Source: Polytrichum commune (taxonomy: Eukaryota; Streptophyta; Polytrichopsida; Polytrichales; Polytrichaceae). Taken from it: a DNA stretch of 64,000 nucleotides. The DNA is taken from assembly GCA_950295325.1 (NCBI GenBank), contig OX485804.1, forward strand, positions 44,518,001 through 44,582,000, given 5' to 3'. Position 1 is the stretch's first letter. Each line of letters starts with the position of its first letter. This document shows positions 14,376-64,000 of this stretch, one piece after another. Below the pieces are notes generated by a model, which made no database searches, was not told where the DNA came from, and saw nothing but the letters and a program-made list of their open reading frames with translations. A program made the translations under genes and the position numbers.

Positions 14376-17300
14376 AGGCAAGGGGATGACGGAGAGCGGA
14401 GCGGGCGGGGGTCGACAAGGAGGGACAACGAAGCTCGGGTTAGGTTCGCTCGTTGAGGTGAGTTGGTTTTGTCTTAGGGGGCGTGCATTGTGTGAATTGG
14501 CTCTGTATTTGAGAGAGAGGGAGAGAGACAGAGAGAAGGGAGGGGGAGGGGGAGGGGGAGAGAGAGATGTGTTTGTGTATTTGTTTGGATGTGTGTGTGT
14601 GTGTGTGTGTGTGTGGGTGTTGGTATGGGAACGGCTAGGGTTTGGTAAGGGAAAGGGAGGAGTTAGAGAGTGAGGGTAACATAGAGGTGTGTGTAACATG
14701 CGTGGTGAAGGGAGTTGTGTGCAGGTGCGGCTGAACGAACAAGGGTTGCGTGGGTCGTGGCATCCAGCGGTGGTGGTGAAGGTGAAATCGGGGAGGAGAG
14801 TGGTGGAGTATGAGGAACTCCTGAGTGAGGAGAGAGAAGGGAAGAAACTGCGGGAGACGATTGCGGTAGGGAAGAGTTTGGATGGGGGAGGAGGAGTGAG
14901 AGTGTCGCCTCGGAAGTTAAGCGGGAGGAGTTCGGTGGTTAAGGATCGTATTGTATTGAGGCCGCGGCCTCCCAAGCTCGCTTATCCGCCTCGTTGTAGC
15001 TGGACGAAAGGGCTGTGGGTGGATGTGTTTTGGAACGATTCTTGGTGGGAGGGAATTTTGCAGGAGAGCATCACGTCGGGGAAACAGGTGGTGAATGTCT
15101 TCTTCCCTGACGAAGGGGGTGTGGAGGCTTATGCAATCAAGAATTTGAGGGTTAGGCAGGAGTGGGATGAAGAGACTGGGTTGTGGAGTTTGAAGGGTCA
15201 TACGGGGGGGCATAATTCTATCATCCCTAGTTTCAAAGAGTATAGTGCAAAGAAGATAGAGCTAGGGCATGAGAATAGTGGAGAGCCGAAATGTGAAAGC
15301 GAGAATCTTCAATTGGTGAAGAAGGTGGTAGTGAGAGGAGGAGGAACGCCTTGCGACGATGACCTTTCGTCTTGTGTTTGGAAACGATCGCAGCAGAGGA
15401 AGCAATGTCCGAGGAGTAGAGGAGCAGTAAAAGCCTTAACCACTCAATCTCCTGGGTTAGATCTGTTGAAGGCCAATTGCGGCAGCAGGAAATCGAAAAT
15501 TAGTGTGGTGAGGCAAAGTGAGAGTCCGAAGAAGCGAGTGTTGTCATTTCACAAAAAAACAATAATGCAGAAGAAGGAAGGGCGAGAAATCATCCCGGCA
15601 CCTTGTTTCGATGATGAGACATCATCATACAGAAAGGGAGTAGTAGTCTCACAGCGGCGAGGAGCGAGCTCTCCTCGCGACTACTGCAAGGTTGCGAGAA
15701 AGCAGGGGGGTCAGGAGAGCAATGGAAATTATCTGGGTTATGCCCATGATTTTGGAGGAGGGAGACAGCGGCAGCTTGTAAAGCAGCATCAGAAGGCCAT
15801 GGATGCGAAAGATGACGATGGTATGAGTGGGATGATGACCCCATCAGGTAGTCCGGATCAAGAAGGAGCAGCAGCTGCTGCTGATGGATGTGTCGATATG
15901 CTAATTGACGAGAAGGATACACCTCCTTATATCCATACACCTAGGAAGGCCAATTATTTAGAGTTCACACAATGGGAAAGTCCTGGTAAGAAACCAAGCT
16001 TTGGAATGGCATTTAATATCCAGCAACGGCAGACTTCAGGAGACACTGATGCTGGCCAGCATGCTATTATTGACTCTAAACATCATGTCGTTAAGATCGA
16101 AAAGAGCGAAAAGAAATGCAAGAAGCGACCGGCTGGCAATCACCTTGGGGGAGACGCAGACAGGAAAAGGAAGAAGAGCAGGGGTGCATATCCAGATGAT
16201 GCTCAGTTAGTGTCATCAGGGATAATGGTGCCGTATTCCCAAGAAGGATATAGGAGTAAAAGAGCTGTGACCCATTACAAACCCTCTGCTGCTGCTCAAG
16301 ATAAGTCTGGGAAGAAGAAGGGAACTCGAGGAGGCTGTCGCATGGAAGTGCTCTTGTCCGCTCCTGGTGACAATGATGTCGTAAAGGAGGGCAATAGTGG
16401 AGTGAGTTCAAATACAAGAAAAAATATTCTTTCGTGGCTGATAGAAGCAGGGGTGTTGGTTAAAGATCAGAAGGTGTCCTACATGCACAAGGGGAGGAAG
16501 GAGTTGGGGCATGGGTGGGTGACTTCAGAGGGAGTAATCTGTGGTTGCTGTCATGATGTCTTCACACTCTCTTACTTTGAGGTGCATTGTGGTAGTAAAT
16601 TGCATCGACCTTGCCAGAACATTTTTGTGGATGATGGCAAGTCACTCACTGACCTACAGATGGAGGTTTTTGAAAAGGGAAATGCATTAGGAGGGGCAGA
16701 TCCATTACATCCTCCAACAGGATTGGGGAAGAGACAAAGATCTGAGAACGAGGAAGGAAAGGTAGAAGATGGAAGTGATGATACATGTGGAGTTTGTGGT
16801 GATGGAGGGACGCTCATCTGCTGTGATCACTGTCCATCAACCTTTCATCTGGCATGCATGGAGCTGCAGGTGAAGATTGCCGCATGACATTGTGTTTGCT
16901 GCTGAAGTCACTGACTTATTTATCACTCTTTACTGTTGACAAGCTCTTAAGCGATATAATAGCCTGCCTTGTGTAAATTCATATCAAGAGGTTTAGTGAG
17001 ATGGTTTTTACACCCCCAGTAATGGGATGAAATGCCACCTTAGTCAATGAAAATCTATTTTGTCTTGCAACAGAGAATGCTGTAGGCTTGGGTTTGCTTC
17101 ATGGCAATGCTGATAGTTGTTGAATTTATCTTGCTCTGCAACTTACATCAATTTCATTTCTTCAGGAAGTGCCAAAGGAGGATTGGTTTTGTCCCAATTG
17201 TCGATGTGCCATATGTGGTGGAAGCGAATTCAATGGAGATCAGAGTACTTTCAATGAGCTGACAGTGCTGTTCTGTGACCAATGTGAACGTGAATGTAAG

Positions 17301-22321: not shown

Positions 22322-24935
22322 ATACCCCTTTTAACATAACCTGTCTGTTTGCTACAATGTGACGATGATGGTTGTTGCAAGTGACTGGAAGGAGGAGAAA
22401 ATGAAGTTAGCAAAGAGCACTTAGAATCTTCATGTGCGTTCCACACAGTTCACATTTCTTCCCATTTGGGGATTGTGAAATTTTGATGACTGTAAGATAG
22501 GCGTTCATGGGAGCGCTCACCTTGTATAGAGGCCACTTCACTTCTAACTCAGGTTCTCCACATTGTTGCTGGCACCCAAATCAAAAGTAGATGGATATAA
22601 GCATACAGAAGTCTAATCAAATAGCGTAACACTTGGCAAGTATTTGTATCTGCCTTGGTGCAATTGCACTGAATAAATTCATTTTTGGCATACAATTTGG
22701 TGTTTGTGTTCTGGACATCTGTCATTTACATTACTCGTTCTACATGTTGTGGTTGAATGCAAGTATGAAAGCAGGCCTTTGAATGACACTTTTAGCTTTG
22801 TACACACTTCTTGTAGGACATAAACATGTAATCAATGCAAGCTATTTAGAAGATCCAATTCATGCCCTTAGCCATCTCCCTTATGTTCTTGGAGCTCAAA
22901 TGAATATCTTACTCATTATATCAGGTGAAGATTCTCTTTTTCACTAAATGATCATATAGGGTCCCACGACTACATTGACCATTGAGTTTAGAATGATCAA
23001 CAAAATTTGTACATGCAGTCCAATCTCTGTAAAACACAAGTCTTTTCATAGTTCATTCTTAGGTCCATACACCACTCAAATATAGGTGTTTGTTTAAGAT
23101 GACTCTAAATTAGGGCAGCCACAATCACCTACTGCATTGGATTTGGAATTGTGTCATACAATTAGCAATTACAAATCTTGAAGATTGTCAATCCAAGTTG
23201 AGATGCAAAAGTTATTTGAGCCAGGAGTAACATTTCTTTTAAAAATCTATATAAGTGATCAAATCTAACTTACTCTTCAAACTCTCTTAACTATCAACGT
23301 ATAATGGTGTCTATAGTTTGGGGTACAAGTCTCACCATATAAGGTAGATGTACCTAGTTCCAATATGGCAAAAATATGGACACCTATATTTAAGTGGTAT
23401 ATTTAAAAAGTATAAGACTATGTGCTCAAAATATGTTCACTATTCTAAGTTCAATAATCAATATGATTGGGGAACCTATACAATTGCTTAATGAGCTCGA
23501 GAAACTTCATTTTGATAATAAATAAAATACTCATATGAGCTCCAATAATTATAAGGCACATGGCTACGGGCACAATGATTCGGATTCCATATCCTATGCA
23601 ATGTTGGTGCAGAGGGAAAAGTATCTGAATAGCACACGTCTACCTTACCACTCAAATATAGTTGTTTAAGAAGACTGACAACAAACGGCTAACATACCTC
23701 ATCTACTGTAAGGTTTTATTTTGGTCGAGTCATCTTGGAAGACTATCAAAGCATCTCAGTGCGATGTCGTGAAGAAAATGCTCCTGAACTGGAGGTACAA
23801 AGAATTATGAACCACTACAATATCAATATTAATCAATGTGTGTCCAGAGGGTACTTATTGGGTGGAATCATACTTGTGATTTTCATTGCAAATACTAATT
23901 TTTTTTATAAAATTTTTTTTATTCACTTGGGCCCACAAATATGGTTAGCATCTGCTTTCAACAATCGTGCTTTCCAAGGGGCCAGAAAGTATGTAAAGGT
24001 AGTTGGGTCTTAATGGTCACTTTTTCTGACTTCGTCTATGATATGAAACTCGAGATTAGTGCAAGATGATTAGCAATTCCAACCTGTGGTTTGTAGCCAC
24101 TTTTCTCATGATTTTTTGGGGATTATATGGAGATCTTTGTTCATTCTCAAAGTGAAGATTCTTGTGCTTATTAATTAGTCATATAGGTCTTCCCCCAATT
24201 ATGTTGACTCTTGCGTTTAGCATGGTTGACACATTTTGAACATGTAGTCCAATTTCTTTTAAACACATGTTGTTTTTGTGTCCGTTCTTGGATCCACAAG
24301 CCATGTACCACTCAAATATAGGGATCTGGTAAAGGGAAAGTAACCAAGCTAGGTGCATCCACCTTAGAAATTGTTTGGACCATCTTTGCATCGGTTAAAT
24401 CAACTTTTTGTTTTCTTTAGATATTGTTTGCAACGCTTTTAGTAATTGGATGTCAAAGTTGATTGTTAAACAAAACAATTTATTGAATATAACTTCCAAC
24501 CACTACCAACATATGAGCACTAGGCAATTGTCTTGCGCCAATGAAAAAAAATTGGACATCTACCACTGGAACAAATTTGTGGATTTTCTAATGATGCATG
24601 ACACTTGTCCATGACTCATATTGCTTACAATGAAGCTATACCACCTGAAGCCACAACATCACCTGCCTTGGAACAACTTGGTCTTAATTTTCTTCTAACA
24701 ACTTGGTGCCCTTCAACCTCAACTTCATCTAAATTAGTGCATTGATTATCCAATTAGTGTGTGTTACTATTGGGAGTTACATTGTGCAATAACATCTTAC
24801 TCAAGAGTTTCAACAAGAGTAACTCTAGAACATAAATGACTATGCTTGGTAAAATATTGCATTGCATAACTCCAAATAGTAAACGCACTAATTGGGATAA
24901 TCAGTGTGCTCATAACTGTAGGTTAAATTTAGAAT
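22322..24935. other. Intergenic between convergent genes; repeat copies
   Basis: The IDM1-like 3' end lies at the left. Copies of the dispersed CACTCAAATATAGGTGT family occur at about 22900-23110 (minus), 23350-23690 (plus) and 24150-24330 (minus). A segment at about 23926-23990 (CACTTGGGCCCA..., CTTTCCAAGGGGCCAG) recurs in diverged form at about 25318-25376, which shows an old local duplication. The 92-codon frame at 23735-24013 has no domain. Confidence 0.45.
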
Positions 24936-24986
24936 TTGTTGTGATTCCCCTTCCTTGTGACGACCTAGCATCCATTTCTGCTGCAA
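24936..24986 (-). pseudogene. Duplicated 5'-exon fragment of the RNase III-like gene
   Basis: The minus strand repeats the acceptor and start of exon 2 of the adjacent gene: a T-rich tract, GCAGCAG, then ATG (24975-24973) and MDARSSQGRG followed by ITTNS. The functional exon reads MDARPSQGRG then FTTDS. After about 15 codons the similarity stops, and the frame ends soon after. It lies about 0.55 kb beyond the 3' end of the functional gene on the same strand, so it is the remnant of a partial tandem duplication. Confidence 0.75.
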
Positions 24987-25524
24987 AAAGCAAAGGAAGG
25001 AAAGTGCAAATTGCTACAAAACAAATTGTGACACACAGAAGTTATACAAGGTGTAAGTAAGGATTCTTTTACACTTTATAAGGTATCACATCAGCTTTCC
25101 AAGTTGGTTTCACTGTTGAACCTAGAATGGTGTTTGGTTTTAACTACAAGTATTGCTATATACCACTTCAATATAGCTGTTACATTTGAAAAGCGTGACC
25201 ACATAAGGCTAAAATACCCCACCTAAGGCTTACAATTTCATGTAAGAAACTGCTCCTGACGCCTCCATCCAAGGAAATAAGAACGGCAATGATATTAACA
25301 GGCCTTATTTACTCTTCACTTGGGCCCAAATTGGCTTGCGTCTGCTTTGGACATTCGCACTTTCCAAGGGCCAGTATGTCTGCAGCACTACTAATAACTG
25401 CATGCTGATAATTAAGTTAAAAAAATTGATTGAATAACCTCCAATGTAAACCACCTGAAGCTATACTGAAATCAATTACCTTGGAACTACGAATCTCACC
25501 TAGACAGCTATATTTGTTTTTATG
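24987..25524. other. Intergenic between the exon fragment and the RNase III-like stop codon
   Basis: It contains the segment at about 25318-25376 that is similar to 23926-23990. The 3' UTR and polyadenylation region of the minus-strand RNase III-like gene should fall here. No further gene is seen. Confidence 0.4.
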
Positions 25525-28500
25525 TTACAATGACCCAAAAACCTCTCTCCATTTGATAAGAGCTTTCTCTGCAGCATCCCTCTTGGCTAATTTTTGGGAT
25601 TTCCCAACTCCAGTTGCCATGCGAATACCTCTAATGTACACCCGTATTCTGCAAGCCTCATTTGCAGTATTCTTATTGTCGATTCCTACCAACCTGCAAA
25701 AACAAATCTTGACTTGGTTACAGCCAATGTTGGACGAGTATTTTGGTGAATGCATGATATGAATAAACAACATCAGTAATGATAGCAAAAGACCTACCCG
25801 TGGGTGTAAAAATTGTATTACCAGTTAAATTTTGATATTTGGTGGGTATTTCAAGGTGAGAGAATCTTTGTATACCCAAGTATTATATTTGGGTCAATAC
25901 CATTCTAAACAATATTGACACAAAAGGTGATATAGAAGGTTCTTGCATGGTATATAGACCCAAAGTATCCAAAACAAAAGTATTCTCAAATACCCATACC
26001 CTATTGGTATCAAAAATGTGAAATCCTCATTAAAGATACCCAAATGGTATTAAAAAAAAAGACAATACCAGTTCAACATTGGTTACAACTTCATCCCAGG
26101 GTGATTTCATCTTGATGGAGGCATTGTGTTCAGGAGGTTTCTCAACAATGCCAACAGGATCATTTTCTACCAAGGTAGGACTACCCTATGTGCAGGCCAG
26201 ATTGGGTACAAATTCTTTTTTTTTTTGCAAAATGTGCCACATGTCATCACATGAATCGTTGGAGCTACTAGACCTTGAAACTAAAATCTCTCACTGGAGG
26301 AAAATGCTGACACTGTCCCACTTCACCTTACAAAAGAGGTTGACGGCCTACTAACGGACCAAGAAAGTTCAAATGTGTAAAGTTCCCACATGGAGTCCTA
26401 CATGGACTGCAGTGGAGAAGGTTTCATGGTATACCAGATTTTGCATCAAGCCCACCTCAAAGAGATGGGTCTAGCACAAAACCAGGAGACCATGACAATT
26501 CGAAATCTCATCACAACCCTTGATTTATTATAAATTATTAAGTGGAGGGGCCTGGATAAATACTAAAATGGCAATGAAATAGCATATGGTTGAGAGCCTG
26601 GTTGCCTATGTCTTTACACTACCCTTGAAGGCCATGGCCACAAAAATCCAGTTCTAATTTTCCATGGTACGGCCTGTGAATGAGTTTTAAGGGCTGTCAC
26701 ATTAGGTAAAGTTGCCCTTAGACAGAGATGTGCCCAATCAGAAATGAGCACACAAAATATAGAAGAAAATAATTGATACCACATACTTGTACTCTGGTTG
26801 CACTTGCAGTAGCACTACACATTGTTCTTGAAGTGATGCCACCGGATTCCTTGTTGGATCGGCCAATAACAACAAAGGTAACAGTCGAGTCTCAACACAG
26901 TGCAATGCACTCACAAGACCCTGCCACAGCGTATTCAAAAGAATCAATCAGGTCACAAATTTCCAAACGGTGGTATATCATGTAAGTATTGCAGTTACCA
27001 ATTAGTTCAACCAGGGTTTTGGTCGGTAGTTGGTTGTTTTGCATACAAATCTTTCCATGTTTGGTAAGTTTTTGGGTGCATGCTTAGAGTCAGTGTGGAA
27101 TTTTAAACAAAATACATTCTATATCAGTTCATTGAGGGCAAAACTCATTTTGGCATGTCAAGGCATGCCTAAATGAGTTTGCCCCTCGATGAACCAATAT
27201 AGGATGTTCCTTGTTGCACACCAACCCCAAGCATGCACCAAACCATGGAAAGATTTGTATGCAAAACATCCAACTCCCAAACAAAACTCCGGTTAAATTA
27301 AAGGATAACTCTAATTTGTAAACTTTATACCCAGTGGTGTATTTAGCAATTAAATTGTATTGTTTTTTTAGTAGCAATTTTCTTTGTAGTAACAACCTGA
27401 TGACCAACCACAATGTTCTTGGGAACAAGCTATGTGAAGATTACATTTTCTACAAATAGACCGCCGATATAAGCTTCAAGGGTGTCTGCAAATGCTTTGG
27501 TCTGTACAAAACACATAAGTACTGTTAGTAGGAGCTAGTTACCTCATGTACACAGAAATCAAAATCGAAAACACATGAAAAGTAACCTAGCCAGATTAAG
27601 CAAGAAATTCTTTATTATCTTGCAGTAGAGTAGATCCTTTAGTGAACTAAGTTGGAGCACCTGAAGCTCCAAAAAAATAGTTGCCGCTGGTTTTTTGGAC
27701 TGAGAAAGAGGAGGGTCACAAAGCACAAGCTCTCGCAAACCCAGCAAACTTGACCATACGTGAGCAAGATTTCTGTTGCAAACCTGCAGCAATCCCATAG
27801 CCACCCAAATCACTATAGTTATCGACAACATTTCTAAAATCAATGTAACAGACTATTCTATTCCCTCTTTTATGTATCCAGATCTACACTTTAAATGTCA
27901 TCTTGCAGATAAACCAACAAAAAGTTTATTTTATATATGCTGCCCCTTCTTGACAATAATTGAATGAAGTTGAACAAAATGAAGAAAATAAAATAAAATG
28001 AGGAGAGTGTACCAATTGTGATCTCCGTTCTGTGATTATGCCCTACATCATCCAACTTTATAGTCAAATAATGTCCTTCCAGATGATGGGCCTCAAACAA
28101 AAACTACTCAAAAGCTACAAATTCATGATAGAGCCAAAGAAATGTGCAAATACCATATCACCAAAGATTAGTGTTGCACACACGTTTAGAACAGATGTAG
28201 ATGAAGAGCAAGCAACATACAGTAGATAAGAAAGGATGTTGACGAATGAGGTGGAGGGAGGCAGCAAGACTTAAAATTGTATCGCCCACTAAAGCCAGCT
28301 GTGATCGAGCCTGCAAGGCAGATTAAATCCAAAGTCTCCTGTAAGAGAAGGTTTTATGTCCATTCAGCTGTCCCATGTTTCCAAGAAAAGATTTCTCCAA
28401 TTACCAAGTCACTTTAACAGAATCTCATTTGTTAAGTTCATCTTGAGTCATTTCTTAAAAAACTGAACCTTATTTAAGTGGTTTTATTTTTCTAATGAGA

Positions 28501-31500
28501 TTCCCCATGGAAGTCATAAGTTGATATTAGGGTGAAAATACAGTCATGTACGTGAAGGAAAATATAATTCTAAGAAAAATCTAGTATTTTAAGCCACCAT
28601 TTCTATGCATGATTATATTTCTTTCATTCTTTTCAACTATGTTGTACATAGGTTAGTGTTGAGTCCTGGGACAAAAAATCCTTAAAACAGAACCTTCCTA
28701 TCAATAGTTCATGAATATTTTCAATCAAAAACTTATACATGGGTTTTTGGCATGTCAAGATGTTAGAATTAGCTTTCAACTGTATGAATGTAATCTTCAA
28801 ATCATTCGTAACAACTCTTCTTTAAATGCATACAACACTTGAGCATTGAAAGTCTGAAGTCATCTCAATTTTCACAAAACACCCTTTGACCTTTGAGGGT
28901 GATGATTACTAGAGTCACTATTTTATTTCTATGCATACTGGCTAGAATACAGGACTTCAATTATATCCAGACATGCACAGAAACTGACAGATACAGGGGA
29001 GAAAAAAAGCTAGAAGGTATCAAGTTTTGTTACCTCTCCATGGGCATCAGCAAAAGTCATGAGAATGTCGACATCTGTGACCTCTGCCCTTTGCCTTCTC
29101 TCACTGAGTTCCAAAGATGTGGAGGGTTTTATGAGCTTTTTTTCCTTCAAATGTGGAGGCATCTTTGACATATAGTAGCTCTTATGTACCTGCTCTATAC
29201 TAGAGACAATTCACCACAAAGATGATCAACTTCTGATTATCAACTACATTAGAACATCTTTACTCACACAAGGAAAATCCACAAAATGGCACAAAAGATG
29301 AAAAAGGAGATTAAGATAGGGACCAGGATTCTTAAGAGTAGTTCACGATTATTGATGCGGCAGCCAAGTTTGTCATAAAGAATCTGACGACATAAGAAAA
29401 ACAAAACTCAAAATTAGGATTCCATTGATATAATCAACTTGATAATCAACAGGAAGTGACATCTCAAAATGCAAGTGACCAGCATTTTACTGCTGAGTCA
29501 GTGTTGATACATATGCTTCAGGGATAAATATTTTTCAATGCTAACTCATCAACATTTAGCTAATGATTCATTCACCATCGATTCAAATCATAATTCCACC
29601 TTTTAGGTCTTGCAACTATTAAAGATAAAATAAAAGATCAAACTTGCAATCCTGTGTTTGGTAGGCATTAAGAGTTGTCCTCTAACTCAGGATGACTTCG
29701 GAAGGGGAGTTGGTTGTTTGCATACAACACCTTCCATGATTTGTAAGTTTTTGGCGCATGCTTGGAGGTAGTGTGGAGGTATAAACAAAGAACATTCTAT
29801 ATCAGATCATTAAGAGTCAAACTCATTTTGGCATGCCAAGAGGTGCTAAAATGAGCTTGGCCCTAGTAGAACGAAAAGTAGGCTGCTTTTCATTCAAATT
29901 GAAACACTACCTGCAAGCATGCATCATAAGTGAAAAGAAATTGTATGCAAAACAACCATGGAGAATTATAGGGGACCAACTTTCCCTATGAAAGTTGATG
30001 TAATAATTCTACCTCTAATAACTCAACTCTAACGATTCAAGTTTGTAGTTTGATGTAATTGAATGAAAGGGAAATTCCTGTTGATGATATATGACTTTCA
30101 AGAATTGTGATGAAGAGCAACGTGAAAAGTTATACCTCAAGCTGTATGTCAAAGTTCTTGGGGAGTGGTAACAATTCATGAATCGAGTCCGGGATTTGCC
30201 ACCAACTCTCAGATTGCCGTTGCCCTTGTGCCAAAACACTCGCCAACAAGTGCTCTAAATTATTAGCCTCTGCCATATTATTATCCTCTTCCGCAGCCTC
30301 TAATTTTCTTTTACCAGGTGGTTGGTTGTTCAAAACAACTTGGTCCTCTTCAGCTTCGTCTAAATCACTGCATGGAACTATATCATTGAATTTACTAGAC
30401 TCATTATCTGATTCTGAATCTGTTGTGAATCCTCTTCCTTGTGATGGTCTAGCATCCATTTCTGCTGCAAAAAATAAAGCAAGGGAAGTAAGGTGTGTGT
30501 GCCTTATGCTGTCACTCTTTGTGATTGGACACATATCTCTTTAAGGGGTATATAGCAAAGCTTGTAGTCTAAAATGGACAAATAAAGACATGTATTACAA
30601 TGAGATTGGATAATGTGCTCAAATTGTTAGCCATTCTAGGTTCAATATTGAACATCACAATTGGGAGGGTCCATCTGATCGTCTCAAGAGAAAGAAAATC
30701 TACTTTGACCTCTTATAACTTTTTCATATAAACTCTAGTTACAGTTGAATTTACAAGTTGTTGCTTCTTGTCCTCCTATAATAAATCTGGAAGTAAGTAC
30801 TTTGAAGATTTGTTGTTATCACAAAACTCATTCTCCTTCATATGATTAGCTGAAATTACAGATACTACAGATTGTGGCAGATTGTGTTATGATCTTGAAG
30901 GAATCCAACTACCAAAACGCCTGTTGAAATGTGAGCACTTCATGAGGAGTAGGGTGTGACCCATTCATGAAATTTTATAATCAAGCTTTAGGAAGTAATA
31001 GAGAATTTTAATAGGTACGTCTGGGAAAACAGATTGCTACAAAATTCAAGATCTGTGCATTTGAATTTAAGAGTCCCAAATTTAGCAATTAAAAGGAGAA
31101 AAAACTAAGCACAGCTTCGGCTAACTTTGCTAATGGCCACAAAACTTACTGAATTGGCATTTCCACCATCACTAAAACTAAGAATTAGAGCAACAGCTTT
31201 GGCTAATCCAGATCCTACAATGCAAGGCATTCCAATTCTGAACATTCATTCCAACCAGTGAGTAAACTCGGTTGACCCAACAAAGATTCATCCGTGGCCA
31301 CAAATCTTACTGAATTTGGCCATTTCCGCCATCAATGAAATTAGGAACTAGAGCAAAGCGTTGGCTAACCCAGAGCCTACAGCACAAGGAACTTCAATTC
31401 CAACATTCAAGTCAAATTCGCACCGGAAGTGAACTTGGTTAACCAACAAAAATTCGTCAATGGCCTCAAAACTTATGGAATTGCCCATTACCACCAGCAA

Positions 31501-32284
31501 TGACAGAATTAGAGCACAGCATCGGCTAACGTAGATCCTCAACACAAGGTACTTCAGTTTTGATTATTCCAATCCCACTTCGCACCTCAAGTGTTACGGA
31601 ACAAAAATTCGTCGCTGGTCACAAAACTTATTTGTATTGCTCATTTCCAACATCAATAGCACTAAGAACTAGAGCACACAGCTTCAGCTGACCCAGATCC
31701 TACAACCCACGTGACTTCAATTTCCATCATTCTAATTCCAATTAAACTTCCAATTCCAATTCACACGTCAAGTAACTTCCTTACCTACCAAAAATTCGTC
31801 GATAGCCACAAACCTGACTATATTGCCCATTTCCACCATCAATGAAATCGCGATCTAGAGCACATCCAAACCAAACACGAAGCCCCATCTACACCAACCC
31901 TACGTACCCTGAACCTTAAACCCTAAAACCCTAAACCCTAAACCAGCGGAAATTTAGCAATGACTTACCATCAAAAGCGATGACGCTTCGAGAGACAAGA
32001 TGACGCCCATGGCGACATCCCCGCCCACCATAGCCACACTTACTTCCCAAACTGCAAGAATTTACCCCCAGCCTGCACAACCCAATCCCAAACCCACCCC
32101 CAACCTGCTGCCGCTGCTGAATTACCAAACCCTGCCTACCTCTCTCCATTATCCTTCCGCTCAATCCTGCTCCTGCTTCCACTGGAGCCCGTCGCGATGT
32201 GCAGAGACCGGAATTGAAGGTGGAGCTGCAGCTGGGAATCATGCTGAAGGTGGTTCGGAAGCTCGACAAGAAGGAGATTCGCAT
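25525..32284 (-). CDS. RNase III-like protein with C-terminal dsRNA-binding domain (472 aa, 9 exons)
   Basis: Exons on the minus strand: 32284-31969, 30464-30136, 29189-29034, 28310-28221, 28091-28047, 27783-27661, 27501-27445, 26920-26787, 25693-25525. All are GT-AG with closed phases. The N-terminus (MRISFLSSFRTTFSMIP...) is rich in Ser/Arg/Phe and resembles an organelle presequence. An acidic linker follows (about 108-195). The RNase III domain spans about 255-390: signature QLALVGDTILSL, then VCNRNLAHV and KAFADTLEAYIGG. The dsRBD runs from about 405 to the end, with the helix GVGKSQKLAKRDAAEKAL. Asp277, Asp359 and Glu362 of the metal site are present, but the usual Glu of the signature (ERLEFLGD) is Ala273. 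RNase III enzymes cut dsRNA in rRNA, mRNA and small-RNA pathways; this copy may bind or guide rather than cut. If the first exon is non-coding, translation starts at Met108 (30459), giving 365 aa. Exons 2-9 are firm, exon 1 less so. Confidence 0.85.
25815..26075. repeat. AT-rich repeat-like insertion in the last intron of the RNase III-like gene
   Basis: This stretch has recurring GTATT..ACCAGT, GGTAT and TACCCA phrases on both strands. It is loosely similar to a stretch in the last intron of the IDM1-like gene (about 21160-21350, with CTGGTATCAC and ATACCAGTTATG). I could not fix termini or a target duplication, so this is a weak call. Confidence 0.3.
26395..26715 (+). mobile_element. Diverged TAA-family MITE remnant in an intron
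   Basis: Family landmarks are collinear with the copy at 58330: CATGGAGTCCTACATGGA, CACAAAACCAGGAGACCATG, TTGATTTATTATAAATTAT, GGTTGAGAGCCTGGTTGCC and CTTGAAGGCCATGGCCAC. The termini are eroded. It sits in the last intron of the RNase III-like gene (25694-26786). Confidence 0.6.
27001..27300. mobile_element. 300-bp foldback (long inverted repeat) in an RNase III-like intron
   Basis: The left arm (27001-27155) and right arm (about 27162-27300) are near-perfect inverse copies. Paired landmarks are TTTTGCATACAAATCTTTCC with its inverse, GTGCATGCTT with AAGCATGCAC, and TTCATTGAGGGCAAA with the inverse of TTTGCCCCTCGATGAA. The centre is TGGCATGTCAAGGCATGCC. The transcript could fold into a hairpin over 100 bp long. 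A related foldback lies at 29705-29963, so this is a small foldback/MITE family. Confidence 0.85.
29705..29963. mobile_element. Second, diverged foldback in another intron of the same gene
   Basis: The left arm starts AGTTGGTTGTTTGCATACAA and is collinear with the 27001 element through ACATTCTATATCAG.TCATT and ACTCATTTTGGCATG. The right arm, ending TTGTATGCAAAACAACCATG, is its inverse with more substitutions and an inserted block around 29870-29910. It lies in the intron between exon 29034-29189 and exon 30136-30464. Confidence 0.75.
30459..30475 (-). promoter_or_regulatory. Tandem NAGNAG splice acceptor before Met108 of the RNase III-like gene
   Basis: On the minus strand the intron ends TTTTTTGCAGCAGAAATGG. 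Either AG can serve as acceptor, which would add or drop one codon (Ala) without changing frame. The first AG gives an exon starting at 30464, the second at 30461. The same tandem acceptor is kept in the duplicated fragment near 24975. Confidence 0.6.
31917..31944 (-). promoter_or_regulatory. Telo-box cluster (AAACCCTAA)n in intron 1
   Basis: Four overlapping plant telomere-type units (CCCTAAA, one with an extra A) lie 24-51 bases inside intron 1 of the RNase III-like gene, close to the predicted 5' end. Short telo boxes near the start of plant genes bind factors such as TRB and Purα proteins and are common in genes of the translation machinery and growing cells. The run is too short to be a telomere. 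Confidence 0.7.
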
Positions 32285-32870
32285 TCCTCTCAACCCGGAG
32301 CTCTCCTCATCCAGGAGTGAGCGGGTGAATGAATCGACGAGCAGCTGAATTTGGCAAGAATGAAATGTAATTCTATGTTCACGTCTCAAGCTATTGAGCG
32401 TCAGAGCTTGGCGGAGGAGTGCCCCCATCACCCCCTCATCCTCTTGCGATACAATTGTGCATGCATCCACCATGTAAAGTAGATGGGTCTTAAATGGTTC
32501 ATTTTTTTTCCCGACTAGCCCACTTCTCGTTGGATATGAAACATGAGATTTATTGGTTCGAGACAGTGCCCGGGAAATTTTTGGGGCATAGTCGGTCAAG
32601 ATCCTAGGGATTCTGAACCCAACCGGTTACATGTTGACATCTTCTGGTTTTGCTTTCATTCATTTGAGGTATATTCCATAGATTCCTCTAAAATGATCGG
32701 TAATCTTCCTAAAGTCTCAAACTTTAACCGGTTATTTCTCAAACTCAACCGGTTCATCTGTAACTAACCGCCAGTTCTCCCCAAGCCCTGGTACAAGATG
32801 GTTTGCAAATCCAAATTGAGGCCATAGCCACTTTCCTCGTAGTATTTGGAGCTCACTCGCATGAATATCT
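32285..32870. promoter_or_regulatory. Upstream region of the RNase III-like gene
   Basis: This should contain the minus-strand promoter. The open frame continues upstream of Met1 to 32599 without a motif, so a longer N-terminus is possible but not supported. A partial TA-family repeat end (AAGTAGATGGGTCTTAAATG) lies at about 32478. Three AACCGGTT-type sites occur between 32618 and 32770. Confidence 0.4.
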
Positions 32871-33252
32871 TAAGGTGTATGTGGGTGTTATTCGGTTTGC
32901 TTTTCATGTTCTCCAACTTCGACTAATTAGGTTTACACAACTAAACTTGTGTCGTATTAGCAAATCTATGATGAAGCACCAATAGAATCCGGGTTAAAAA
33001 TCAAACCTCCCCTATATTAGTTATGGTTGTTGAGGGTGCACATTTCTTAACCCTTTAACTGAGTACATAGGTCCTCCCAATTATGTTCACTTATTGAGTG
33101 TAGATTAGTTAATAATATTCAAAGACGTAGTCCAATCTCTTTTAAATATACATCTTTAATGATCTTTGCTCTTTGATCCTCACCGAACCACATACCAATC
33201 AATTATAAGCGTCCGATTACAAAGAGGAATCAAATAACACCCGCATTCCTTA
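32871..33252 (-). mobile_element. TA-family element, well-bounded copy
   Basis: The element starts TAAGGTGTATGTGGGTGTTA and ends AACACCCGCATTCCTTA. With the outermost TA as target duplication, the inverted repeats are AGGTGTATGTGGGTGTTATT against AGGAATGCGGGTGTTATT. A TA duplication would fit Tc1/mariner (Stowaway-like) MITEs, though the assignment is tentative. The interior is the inverse of the 62455 copy. Confidence 0.7.
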
Positions 33253-33323
33253 CCCATTATCAAAGTGAAGTTCCTTGTGCTCATCGTACTTATTGTCCTT
33301 ATTGAGAATTACATTAATATAGT

Positions 33324-33704
33324 TGAGTGGCTACAGAAACAACCGAAAAAAGAAAGCACCAAATAAAGACACGTCATGGGAAAAGGGGCTTTATTTATAC
33401 ACAAAATATACAAAGCTAACATTGCATCCGGCAACAGGCTAGCTGCCATGCTCCGAGCCCAAGCATGGATGTCCAAGCCATCGTGTAACAAAGAGAGTGT
33501 TATTTTGGCCACCTAGGTATTTATAATGCCACCTCCCATACCAAAAGCCACTCAACCATCGCCACTTGGACGCCATGAAGGGATCTTGTGTTTGGGTTGC
33601 CTCCTTTATTAAACACAAACGGAAGTGTTCCCCTACTACACCGGCCACATCACCTATCCACGTGGCACTTGCCACCTTGGATCCCCCTTGGACCAATCCT
33701 AACA
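33324..33704 (-). mobile_element. Candidate solo LTR
   Basis: On the minus strand a 381-bp segment begins TGTTAGGATTGG and ends GTAGCCACTCA (TG...CA). It contains a TATA-like box (ATTATAAATACC at about 33519-33530) and, about 140 bp further on, an AATAAAG signal (about 33388-33394), the usual U3-R order of a plant LTR. No matching 5-bp target duplication was found and no internal retrotransposon region flanks it. A relative elsewhere in the genome would be needed to confirm it. Confidence 0.45.
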
Positions 33705-63584: not shown

Positions 63585-64000
63585 TCAAGACAAATCATCA
63601 TATACTGAAGTGGAAGTGCTAGCTGTAGGACCCGTGGCTGCACCAGACAGATAAGTAGTTGGGTTAGCATAAAGAAACTTGTATTTTGTTTCATTCTTCC
63701 ACATGGGTATGGCATCCATTAAAATAGCATCATACTCCTCTTCAGGCCCTTCTAAAGCAACTCTGAGTAAAGCTTCCAAGTTTTTGCTTCCCAATCTATT
63801 CCTTACCCGTGTTTTAATCAAATTTTGAATGCTAAAGGCTCTCTCACATGTAGCAGTGGAAACGCATTGCACTCTAGCAATTTCAGCAAGAATAAGTAGA
63901 TTTGGGTACCTTATTTGTAAAGCATGATTCCAAGTAATCATACCCCACAAATCTCGAAAGGTCTTGTCCCCCCATTCGGTTGTGCATTGCAATTTGAAGG
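63585..64000 (-). CDS. hAT-family transposase, C-terminal part (runs off the window)
   Basis: An open minus-strand frame reaches the window edge, so the 5' part is missing; the stop is at 63585-63587. About 138 codons are visible. They carry the hAT dimerisation domain: YPNLLILAEIARVQCVSTAT, CERAFSIQNLIKTRVRNRL, then LLRVALEG and an acidic stretch. The order STATCERxFSxxxxIKTRxRNRL is typical of the ZNF862/KIAA1586-like hAT group found in many seed-free plants. The visible part is intact, so the element may be young or the gene domesticated. It is the only visible possible source of transposase for the hAT-like MITEs in this window, though a match of termini cannot be tested here. Confidence 0.88.
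   Translation of the reverse strand, partial: FKLQCTTEWGDKTFRDLWGMITWNHALQIRYPNLLILAEIARVQCVSTATCERAFSIQNLIKTRVRNRLGSKNLEALLRVALEGPEEEYDAILMDAIPMWKNETKYKFLYANPTTYLSGAATGPTASTSTSVYDDLS

Follow-up and report, generated by a model that had tools for sequence, protein, structure and literature searches.

An RNase III-like protein of Polytrichum commune with alanine at the position of a metal-binding glutamate

The gene considered here lies on the minus strand at positions 25525-32284 of a stretch of 64,000 nucleotides (nt) from Polytrichum commune (assembly GCA_950295325.1, contig OX485804.1, positions 44,518,001 to 44,582,000), which is called the window below. It encodes a protein with one RNase III domain and one double-stranded RNA-binding domain (dsRBD), in which the first metal-binding Glu of the RNase III signature has become Ala. 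The reading that we favour, with about half of our confidence, is that the protein would be a single-copy, strongly diverged and catalytically crippled RNase III of eukaryotic type and class II layout, which works mainly as a dimer that binds double-stranded RNA (dsRNA).

Results

Gene model and start of translation

The region forms one gene of nine exons (Table 1). Every intron is of GT-AG type with matching phases, all nine exons are intact with their splice sites in place, and there is no stop across 467 codons. Could such a frame arise by chance? When minus-strand pieces of the window with the same lengths were joined at random 20,000 times, no join was open, which rules out a chance origin. 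The gene is real and intact.

A first-pass annotation of the window had given the protein 472 amino acids (aa), and this length is corrected here to 467 aa. A first model without micro-exon had 457 aa and left a gap midway through the RNase III domain. Intron 4 was then scanned for frame-keeping mini-exons of 15-120 nt, and two of the seven candidates were scored. The candidate 28042-28013 (30 nt) encodes GIITERRSQL and fills the RNase III pattern G-x-(L/I)-T-x-x-R-S-x-L-V. With it the Pfam model PF00636 scores 55.8 bits, against 39.9 bits with the other candidate, a 45-nt piece at 28091-28047, and 32.1 bits with neither. The 45-nt piece encodes 15 aa, and adding it to the 457-aa model would give 472 aa; it may be the source of the earlier length, by which the 30-nt micro-exon was apparently missing from the first-pass model.

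Where does translation start? The GC content of exon 1 at the three codon positions is 0.50/0.59/0.57, which is no coding-like pattern, and the exon matches no Pfam family. GC at the first codon position is clearly higher than at the second in six of the eight other exons (2, 3, 4, 6, 7 and 8); the margin is narrow in exon 9 (0.45/0.43), and the order is reversed in the 30-nt exon 5 (0.40/0.50). Translation may start at Met107 in exon 2 instead of exon 1. With 361 aa, the protein would then be acidic at its N-terminus and carry PPGKRKLE as a basic patch, features that are compatible with a nuclear protein, and an organelle presequence appears doubtful. The order first proposed, presequence, acidic linker, RNase III domain and dsRBD, holds for the two domains (PF00636 and PF00035) but is weakened at the presequence by the composition of exon 1. 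Also in exon 2, LLPLPKNFDIQLE looks to us, by eye, like the lead-in to the RNase III domain in class II proteins.

Table 1. Exons of the RNase III-like gene, in window coordinates
Feature	Coordinates	Strand	Content
Exon 1	31969..32284	-	105 codons + 1 base; donor GTAAGT; possibly 5' untranslated region, presequence poorly supported
Exon 2	30136..30464	-	acidic linker, Met107 as possible start, PPGKRKLE basic patch, LLPLPKNFDIQLE; GT-AG, phase 1 to 0
Exon 3	29034..29189	-	VHKSYY, then DILMTFADAHGE leading into the signature helix; GT-AG, phase 0
Exon 4	28221..28310	-	90 nt; ARSQLALVGD, Ala273 (codon GCT), Asp277, Thr297 at the end; GT-AG, phase 0
Exon 5	28013..28042	-	30-nt micro-exon GIITERRSQL; GT-AG, phase 0; adds 24 bits to PF00636
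Exon 6	27661..27783	-	VCNRNLAHVW..., eukaryotic catalytic Asn N310; GT-AG, phase 0
Exon 7	27445..27501	-	TKAFADTLEAYIGG, Lys350, Asp354, Glu357; GT-AG, phase 0
Exon 8	26787..26920	-	RNase III domain ends and dsRBD starts; GT-AG, phase 0 to 2
Exon 9	25525..25693	-	dsRBD with GVGKSQKLAKRDAAEKAL, stop codon; PF00035 residues 393-457

Catalytic site

The protein was aligned with E. coli RNase III, Drosha and 80 bacterial relatives. The latter are the best 80 of 293 relatives, drawn from at least 591 pattern matches, and one of the retrieval patterns includes the signature, its Glu position open to E or A and its G-D fixed. The alignment verifies the signature RSQLALVGD with Ala273 and Asp277 as it was first read, E. 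coli Glu41 standing opposite Ala273. The other E. coli residues D45, E65, D114 and E117 correspond to Asp277, Thr297, Asp354 and Glu357. Three of the four catalytic acids are therefore kept (D277, D354 and E357), and the second acidic pair, reported before as Asp359/Glu362, stands under the numbering D354/E357. The change of Glu to Ala is not the only loss, however, since E65 is replaced as well. Among the bacterial relatives E41, D45, E65 and E117 are kept in all 80, E38 in 78 and D114 in 72. The catalytic Glu of Arabidopsis RTL1 (E92) is also absent, for the spacing E92-x-x-x-D96 puts it at Ala273. E. coli E38 is aligned to S270, and AHGE at the end of exon 3 is aligned to AHNE of Rnt1; E267 of AHGE may be the counterpart of E38, with an insertion of three residues after it.

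Eukaryotic RNase IIIs use two further catalytic residues, an Asn and a Lys (PMC5357909). The window protein has both, N310 and K350. All 8 of the other eukaryotic rows compared carry the Asn, and 6 of 7 carry the Lys, the exception being the first domain of Drosha with His, while in the 80 bacterial relatives the Asn is never found, the Lys twice and both together never. As this pair is kept and is found in none of the bacteria, we read the protein as an RNase III of eukaryotic type whose centre is partly dismantled.

Is the loss of Glu real? The first-pass annotation had named another exon that restores the Glu as what would overturn its reading, and none was found on the minus strand in 24500-33500. 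There the motif [ED]-x-[AILMVFYC]-[GA]-[DE] has no match in any minus-strand frame, though a motif split by an intron would escape, and the intact-signature pattern used for the whole genome has no match within the window. A sequencing error was considered and rejected, because GCT is two base changes away from any Glu codon and a one-base error would not suffice. The loss is real in this assembly.

Domains and family membership

PF00636 covers residues 271-368 (6.4e-14) and PF00035 residues 393-457 (7.8e-9), both scoring over their curated cut-offs. In the 467-aa protein PF00636 reaches 53 bits, above its cut-off of 27, while PF14622 (28.8 bits against 35) and the bacterial RNaseIII equivalog of NCBIfam (76.7 bits against 166.25) stay below theirs. 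The N-terminal extension, single RNase III domain and single dsRBD form the class II layout, and the two domains alone that of RTL1. The earlier statement that the layout matched no protein that could be named is not upheld, since in Arabidopsis RTL1 a single RNase III domain is joined to a single dsRBD, and the class II enzymes Rnt1 and Pac1 add an N-terminal extension (PMC4687873). The review PMC8708148 files AtRTL1/2 as class II-like.

Several other identities were rejected. No helicase, PAZ or second RNase III domain was found in the 467-aa model, which excludes a Dicer-like protein. RNC1 has two RNase III domains against one here, NFD2/RTL4 has no dsRBD while one is present here, and the mL44 model PF22935 gives 15.8 bits, below its cut-off of 27. 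Among 43 PDB sequences matched at E <= 10, the closest are Drosha constructs (9.1e-13, residues 271-460), followed by Dicer-like 1 and E. coli RNase III.

RNase III genes elsewhere in the genome

The genome searched has 408 Mb in 64 contigs, of which C1-C7 measure 42-78 Mb each. The 467-aa protein gave eight matches at E <= 1, all in its own gene region, so that at the sensitivity used the gene is the single match of its kind in the genome. Other queries gave 10 matches (PF14622), 16 (PF00636) and 13 (E. coli RNase III, with dsRBD-only loci included). RTL2, for which as for RTL1 a provisional sequence served in all comparisons, gave 20 at E <= 10, which are Dicer-like loci, stop-interrupted Dicer-like pieces and, weakly, two NFD2-like loci. 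Apart from the window gene, the RNase III loci are Dicer-like (named by paired RNase III domains alone, not by helicase or PAZ), NFD2-like (two), or a degenerate single stretch at C6:26.39 Mb. It should be noticed that both Pfam scans missed the short RNase III exons of the window gene itself, and a similar gene could escape. The DNA pattern of an intact signature occurs at eight places, six of them in Dicer-like loci (one stop-interrupted) and two in stop-broken frames (C5:39.21 Mb and C1:63.76 Mb) that look like chance, a reversed control pattern giving two matches. No intact single-domain RNase III was found in the genome, where one with an unusual signature, or with its signature split by an intron, would escape.

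There are weak matches as well. That of RTL2 at C3:31.075 Mb is a stop-broken Dicer-like piece, and the only genome match of the mL44 model (C2:56.018 Mb, E 0.44) shows nothing RNase III-like by eye. The window domain weakly matches C5:1.525 Mb (E 1.2) and C5:46.62 Mb (E 9.7), both of which contain a stop. Two stop-interrupted Dicer-like stretches on C3 (31085362-31086126 and 31075429-31075587) resemble a Dicer-like gene at C7:36974515-36975513 with an open frame of 934 aa, as if they were pseudogene copies of it. The two NFD2/RTL4-like loci (C5:3504871 and C1:3743261) have degenerate signatures, as the Arabidopsis NFD2 signature likewise is; of the two, that on C1 (3.74 Mb) matches PDB 9h4a (1.2e-16), and the other groups with it in the tree described below.

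Relatives and tree

The pairwise comparison includes six bacterial relatives chosen for their likeness, with Rnt1 and the Dicer-like protein entered without dsRBD. Two of the bacterial relatives score highest (184 and 173), followed by Drosha (163), E. coli RNase III (112), the Rnt1 domain and RTL1 (97 each), RTL2 (93) and a Dicer-like domain (83). Four relatives were found in viral contigs. A tree was built from 38 rows, of which 21 are bacterial relatives from the set of 80. RTL1 and RTL2 group with the second RNase III domains of Dicer-like proteins at 100/99, with the window protein outside; the latter stands weakly next to the second domain of Drosha (88/20). A clade with Rnt1 and fungal 7dey was not recovered in the free tree. 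When groupings were constrained, none of four was rejected: class II (p 0.325), RTL with the second Dicer-like domains (p 0.274), NFD2 (p 0.165) and bacteria (p 0.087). These sequences thus carry the placement as far as a class II-layout RNase III with the eukaryotic Asn/Lys pair. No description of such a plant protein was found in the open-licence literature, as judged by titles and the openings of abstracts.

Surroundings of the gene

Just downstream of the gene, 24927-25005 repeats part of the exon-2 region as a broken second copy, 85% alike to 30411-30489 over 79 nt. A further piece, 24697-24729, is 76% identical over 33 nt to 30334-30366; the broken copy reads only about 30 codons, and one search of it against plasmids gave no match. 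Two introns hold related repeats (27038-27272 and 29717-29958), 71-87% alike in pieces, and inverted arms at 26972-27062/27241-27331 accompany them, perhaps as a small transposable element. In intron 1, 31158-31862 consists of degenerate repeats of 35-77 nt, with telomere-like CCCTAAA units nearby at about 31920-31944. Farther away in the window, a plus-strand frame of 735 aa (14680-16884) matches Agenet (5.5e-11) and the Tify-binding TDBD (3.4e-19), with a PHD finger just under cut-off, as in genes of chromatin-reader type; a hAT transposase C-terminal dimerisation region (1.7e-9) lies on the minus strand at the window edge (63588-63998).

Discussion

What would the substitutions do to the protein? 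In the complex formed by the E. coli enzyme, the ligands of the metal MgA include E41 and E117, and E38 and E65 are on the RNA-contacting surface (PMC9291653). In RTL1, E92W and D96A abolish cleavage and E86A does not (PMC4687873). E. coli E65A is inactive in vivo, and in vitro it is weak in excess magnesium with low binding (PMC8708148), while E38A, E65A and Q165A combined stabilise the RNA complex (PMC9291653). Little or no cutting is most likely, to judge from these residues. The suggestion of the first-pass annotation that the protein may bind dsRNA and not cut it gains from the lost Glu, from the failure to find a restoring exon and from the non-cleaving RTL1 E92W. It is not assured, however, for E. 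coli E41A shows weak activity when magnesium is in excess and has a low score for dsRNA binding in vitro (PMC8708148, Table 1), and by this analogy weak cutting may occur here too.

The favoured reading, a crippled class II-layout protein, may be put as a mechanism. The protein would dimerise through its RNase III domain as other RNase IIIs do, and the two dsRBDs of the dimer would clamp dsRNA. The groove keeps D277, D354, E357 and N310/K350, and has Ala273 for the first metal-ligand Glu and Thr297 for the RNA-side Glu. Without the Glu that ligates MgA in E. coli, the chemistry would be very slow or absent. The protein might then hold, hide or present structured RNA, possibly in the nucleus, or pair with a catalytic RNase III. 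Several observations weigh against this reading. E. coli E41A, as said, retains some activity and scored low on the very binding proposed here. Five side chains of the eukaryotic centre are kept, more than a long-dead site would be expected to show. Overall similarity does not point to eukaryotic class II, as two bacteria outscore Drosha and Rnt1 and the bacterial model still gives 76.7 bits. The end branch of the protein is the longest in the tree, 4.18 changes per column, and gives it no firm position.

The first of these points leads to the chief competitor, that the protein is a working RNase III, weak or dependent on Mn2+ or high Mg2+, in which D277, D354, E357, N310 and K350 hold enough metal for slow or very selective cleavage, to which E267 or a partner subunit may contribute. 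In its favour, only one of the six eukaryotic catalytic side chains is lost, E. coli E41A sets a precedent, and an Entamoeba enzyme, with its site intact, cuts with Mn2+ (PMC5357909). We nevertheless hold it to be unlikely, though worth serious attention, because RTL1 E92W is inactive (with Trp there and not Ala), because E65, whose loss inactivates the E. coli enzyme in vivo, is gone as well, and because all 80 bacterial relatives keep both E41 and E65. The long branch and the broken copy of part of exon 2 downstream would also suit early decay, in a recent pseudogene or a lineage losing the function, with the Glu as a first step. The nine intact exons with their splice sites, the frame that random joins never reproduced, and the preserved dsRBD and remaining catalytic residues make this the less probable of the two.

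Two further explanations are given much less credit. One is an organellar RNA factor or a mitochondrial ribosomal protein akin to mL44, as a presequence would imply. In mL44 too, a degenerate RNase III domain is coupled with a dsRBD, and PF22935 does match weakly, with E 0.015 when the whole protein is used and 0.0042 with the domain by itself. Its 15.8 to 17.6 bits are below the cut-off, however, and the first RNase III domain of Drosha reaches 22.1 bits on the same model; exon 1 has no coding-like pattern, and none of the 43 matched PDB sequences is named as a mitoribosome chain. We consider this very improbable. Slightly harder still to credit is a mis-modelled exon whose true mRNA reads E-x-L-G-D. 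AHGE at the end of exon 3 does resemble the AHNE before RLEFLGD of Rnt1, exon 4 adds three residues before the signature, and a second in-frame AG lies 12 nt downstream, but the Ala codon is within exon 4 under either acceptor and the searches for an acidic signature described above came out empty.

If the favoured reading of a dsRNA-binding, non-cutting protein is extended to other plants, a tentative scenario follows, which we think doubtful as a whole. Some land plants may have a nuclear RNase III of Rnt1/Drosha type, separate from RTL1-5 and Dicer-like proteins, that is now a dsRNA-binding pseudo-nuclease without the MgA-ligand Glu and with the rest of the eukaryotic centre kept. No other RNase III of this kind would remain in the genome; another enzyme would have taken over the cutting, or regulation would work by binding alone. 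The layout is already known, and both plants and trypanosomes have known inactive RNase III proteins. The novelty would be a plant genome whose sole single-domain RNase III with a dsRBD is a class II-type pseudoenzyme, a proposal based on one sequence. If orthologues share the Ala, a plant class II-type pseudoenzyme would join inactive RNC1 and the trypanosome KREPB proteins. One would then ask by which enzyme pre-rRNA and other structured precursors are cut in these plants. Arabidopsis RTL2 processes the 3' external transcribed spacer (PMC4687873).

How does the protein compare with known systems? It shares with Rnt1 and Pac1 the class II layout, the AHxE that precedes the signature and the Asn/Lys pair, and differs in having Ala for the metal-ligand Glu, Thr for the RNA-side Glu and insertions before the signature, with modest similarity to Rnt1. 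Arabidopsis RTL1 is also a plant protein with one domain of each kind, but has E92, which is needed for cleavage (PMC4687873), where Ala273 stands here. The second RNase III domain and dsRBD of Drosha are the best match among solved structures, whereas Drosha has two RNase III domains, keeps the Glu in the second, and groups with the window protein weakly. NFD2/RTL4 is a plant RNase III-like protein with a degenerate signature, but has no dsRBD (PMC4687873), and the two NFD2-like loci of P. commune are distinct from the window gene. RNC1 is a plant RNase III-domain protein that is catalytically inactive (PMC8708148), but it belongs to the chloroplast and has two RNase III domains. The trypanosome proteins KREPB4-10 have non-catalytic RNase III domains that are proposed to be partners of catalytic ones, and KREPB9/10 and their relatives give a precedent for such domains in a structural, dimer-type role (PMC5770545); they come from a distant lineage and have other accessory domains, so that the analogy is one of mechanism only.

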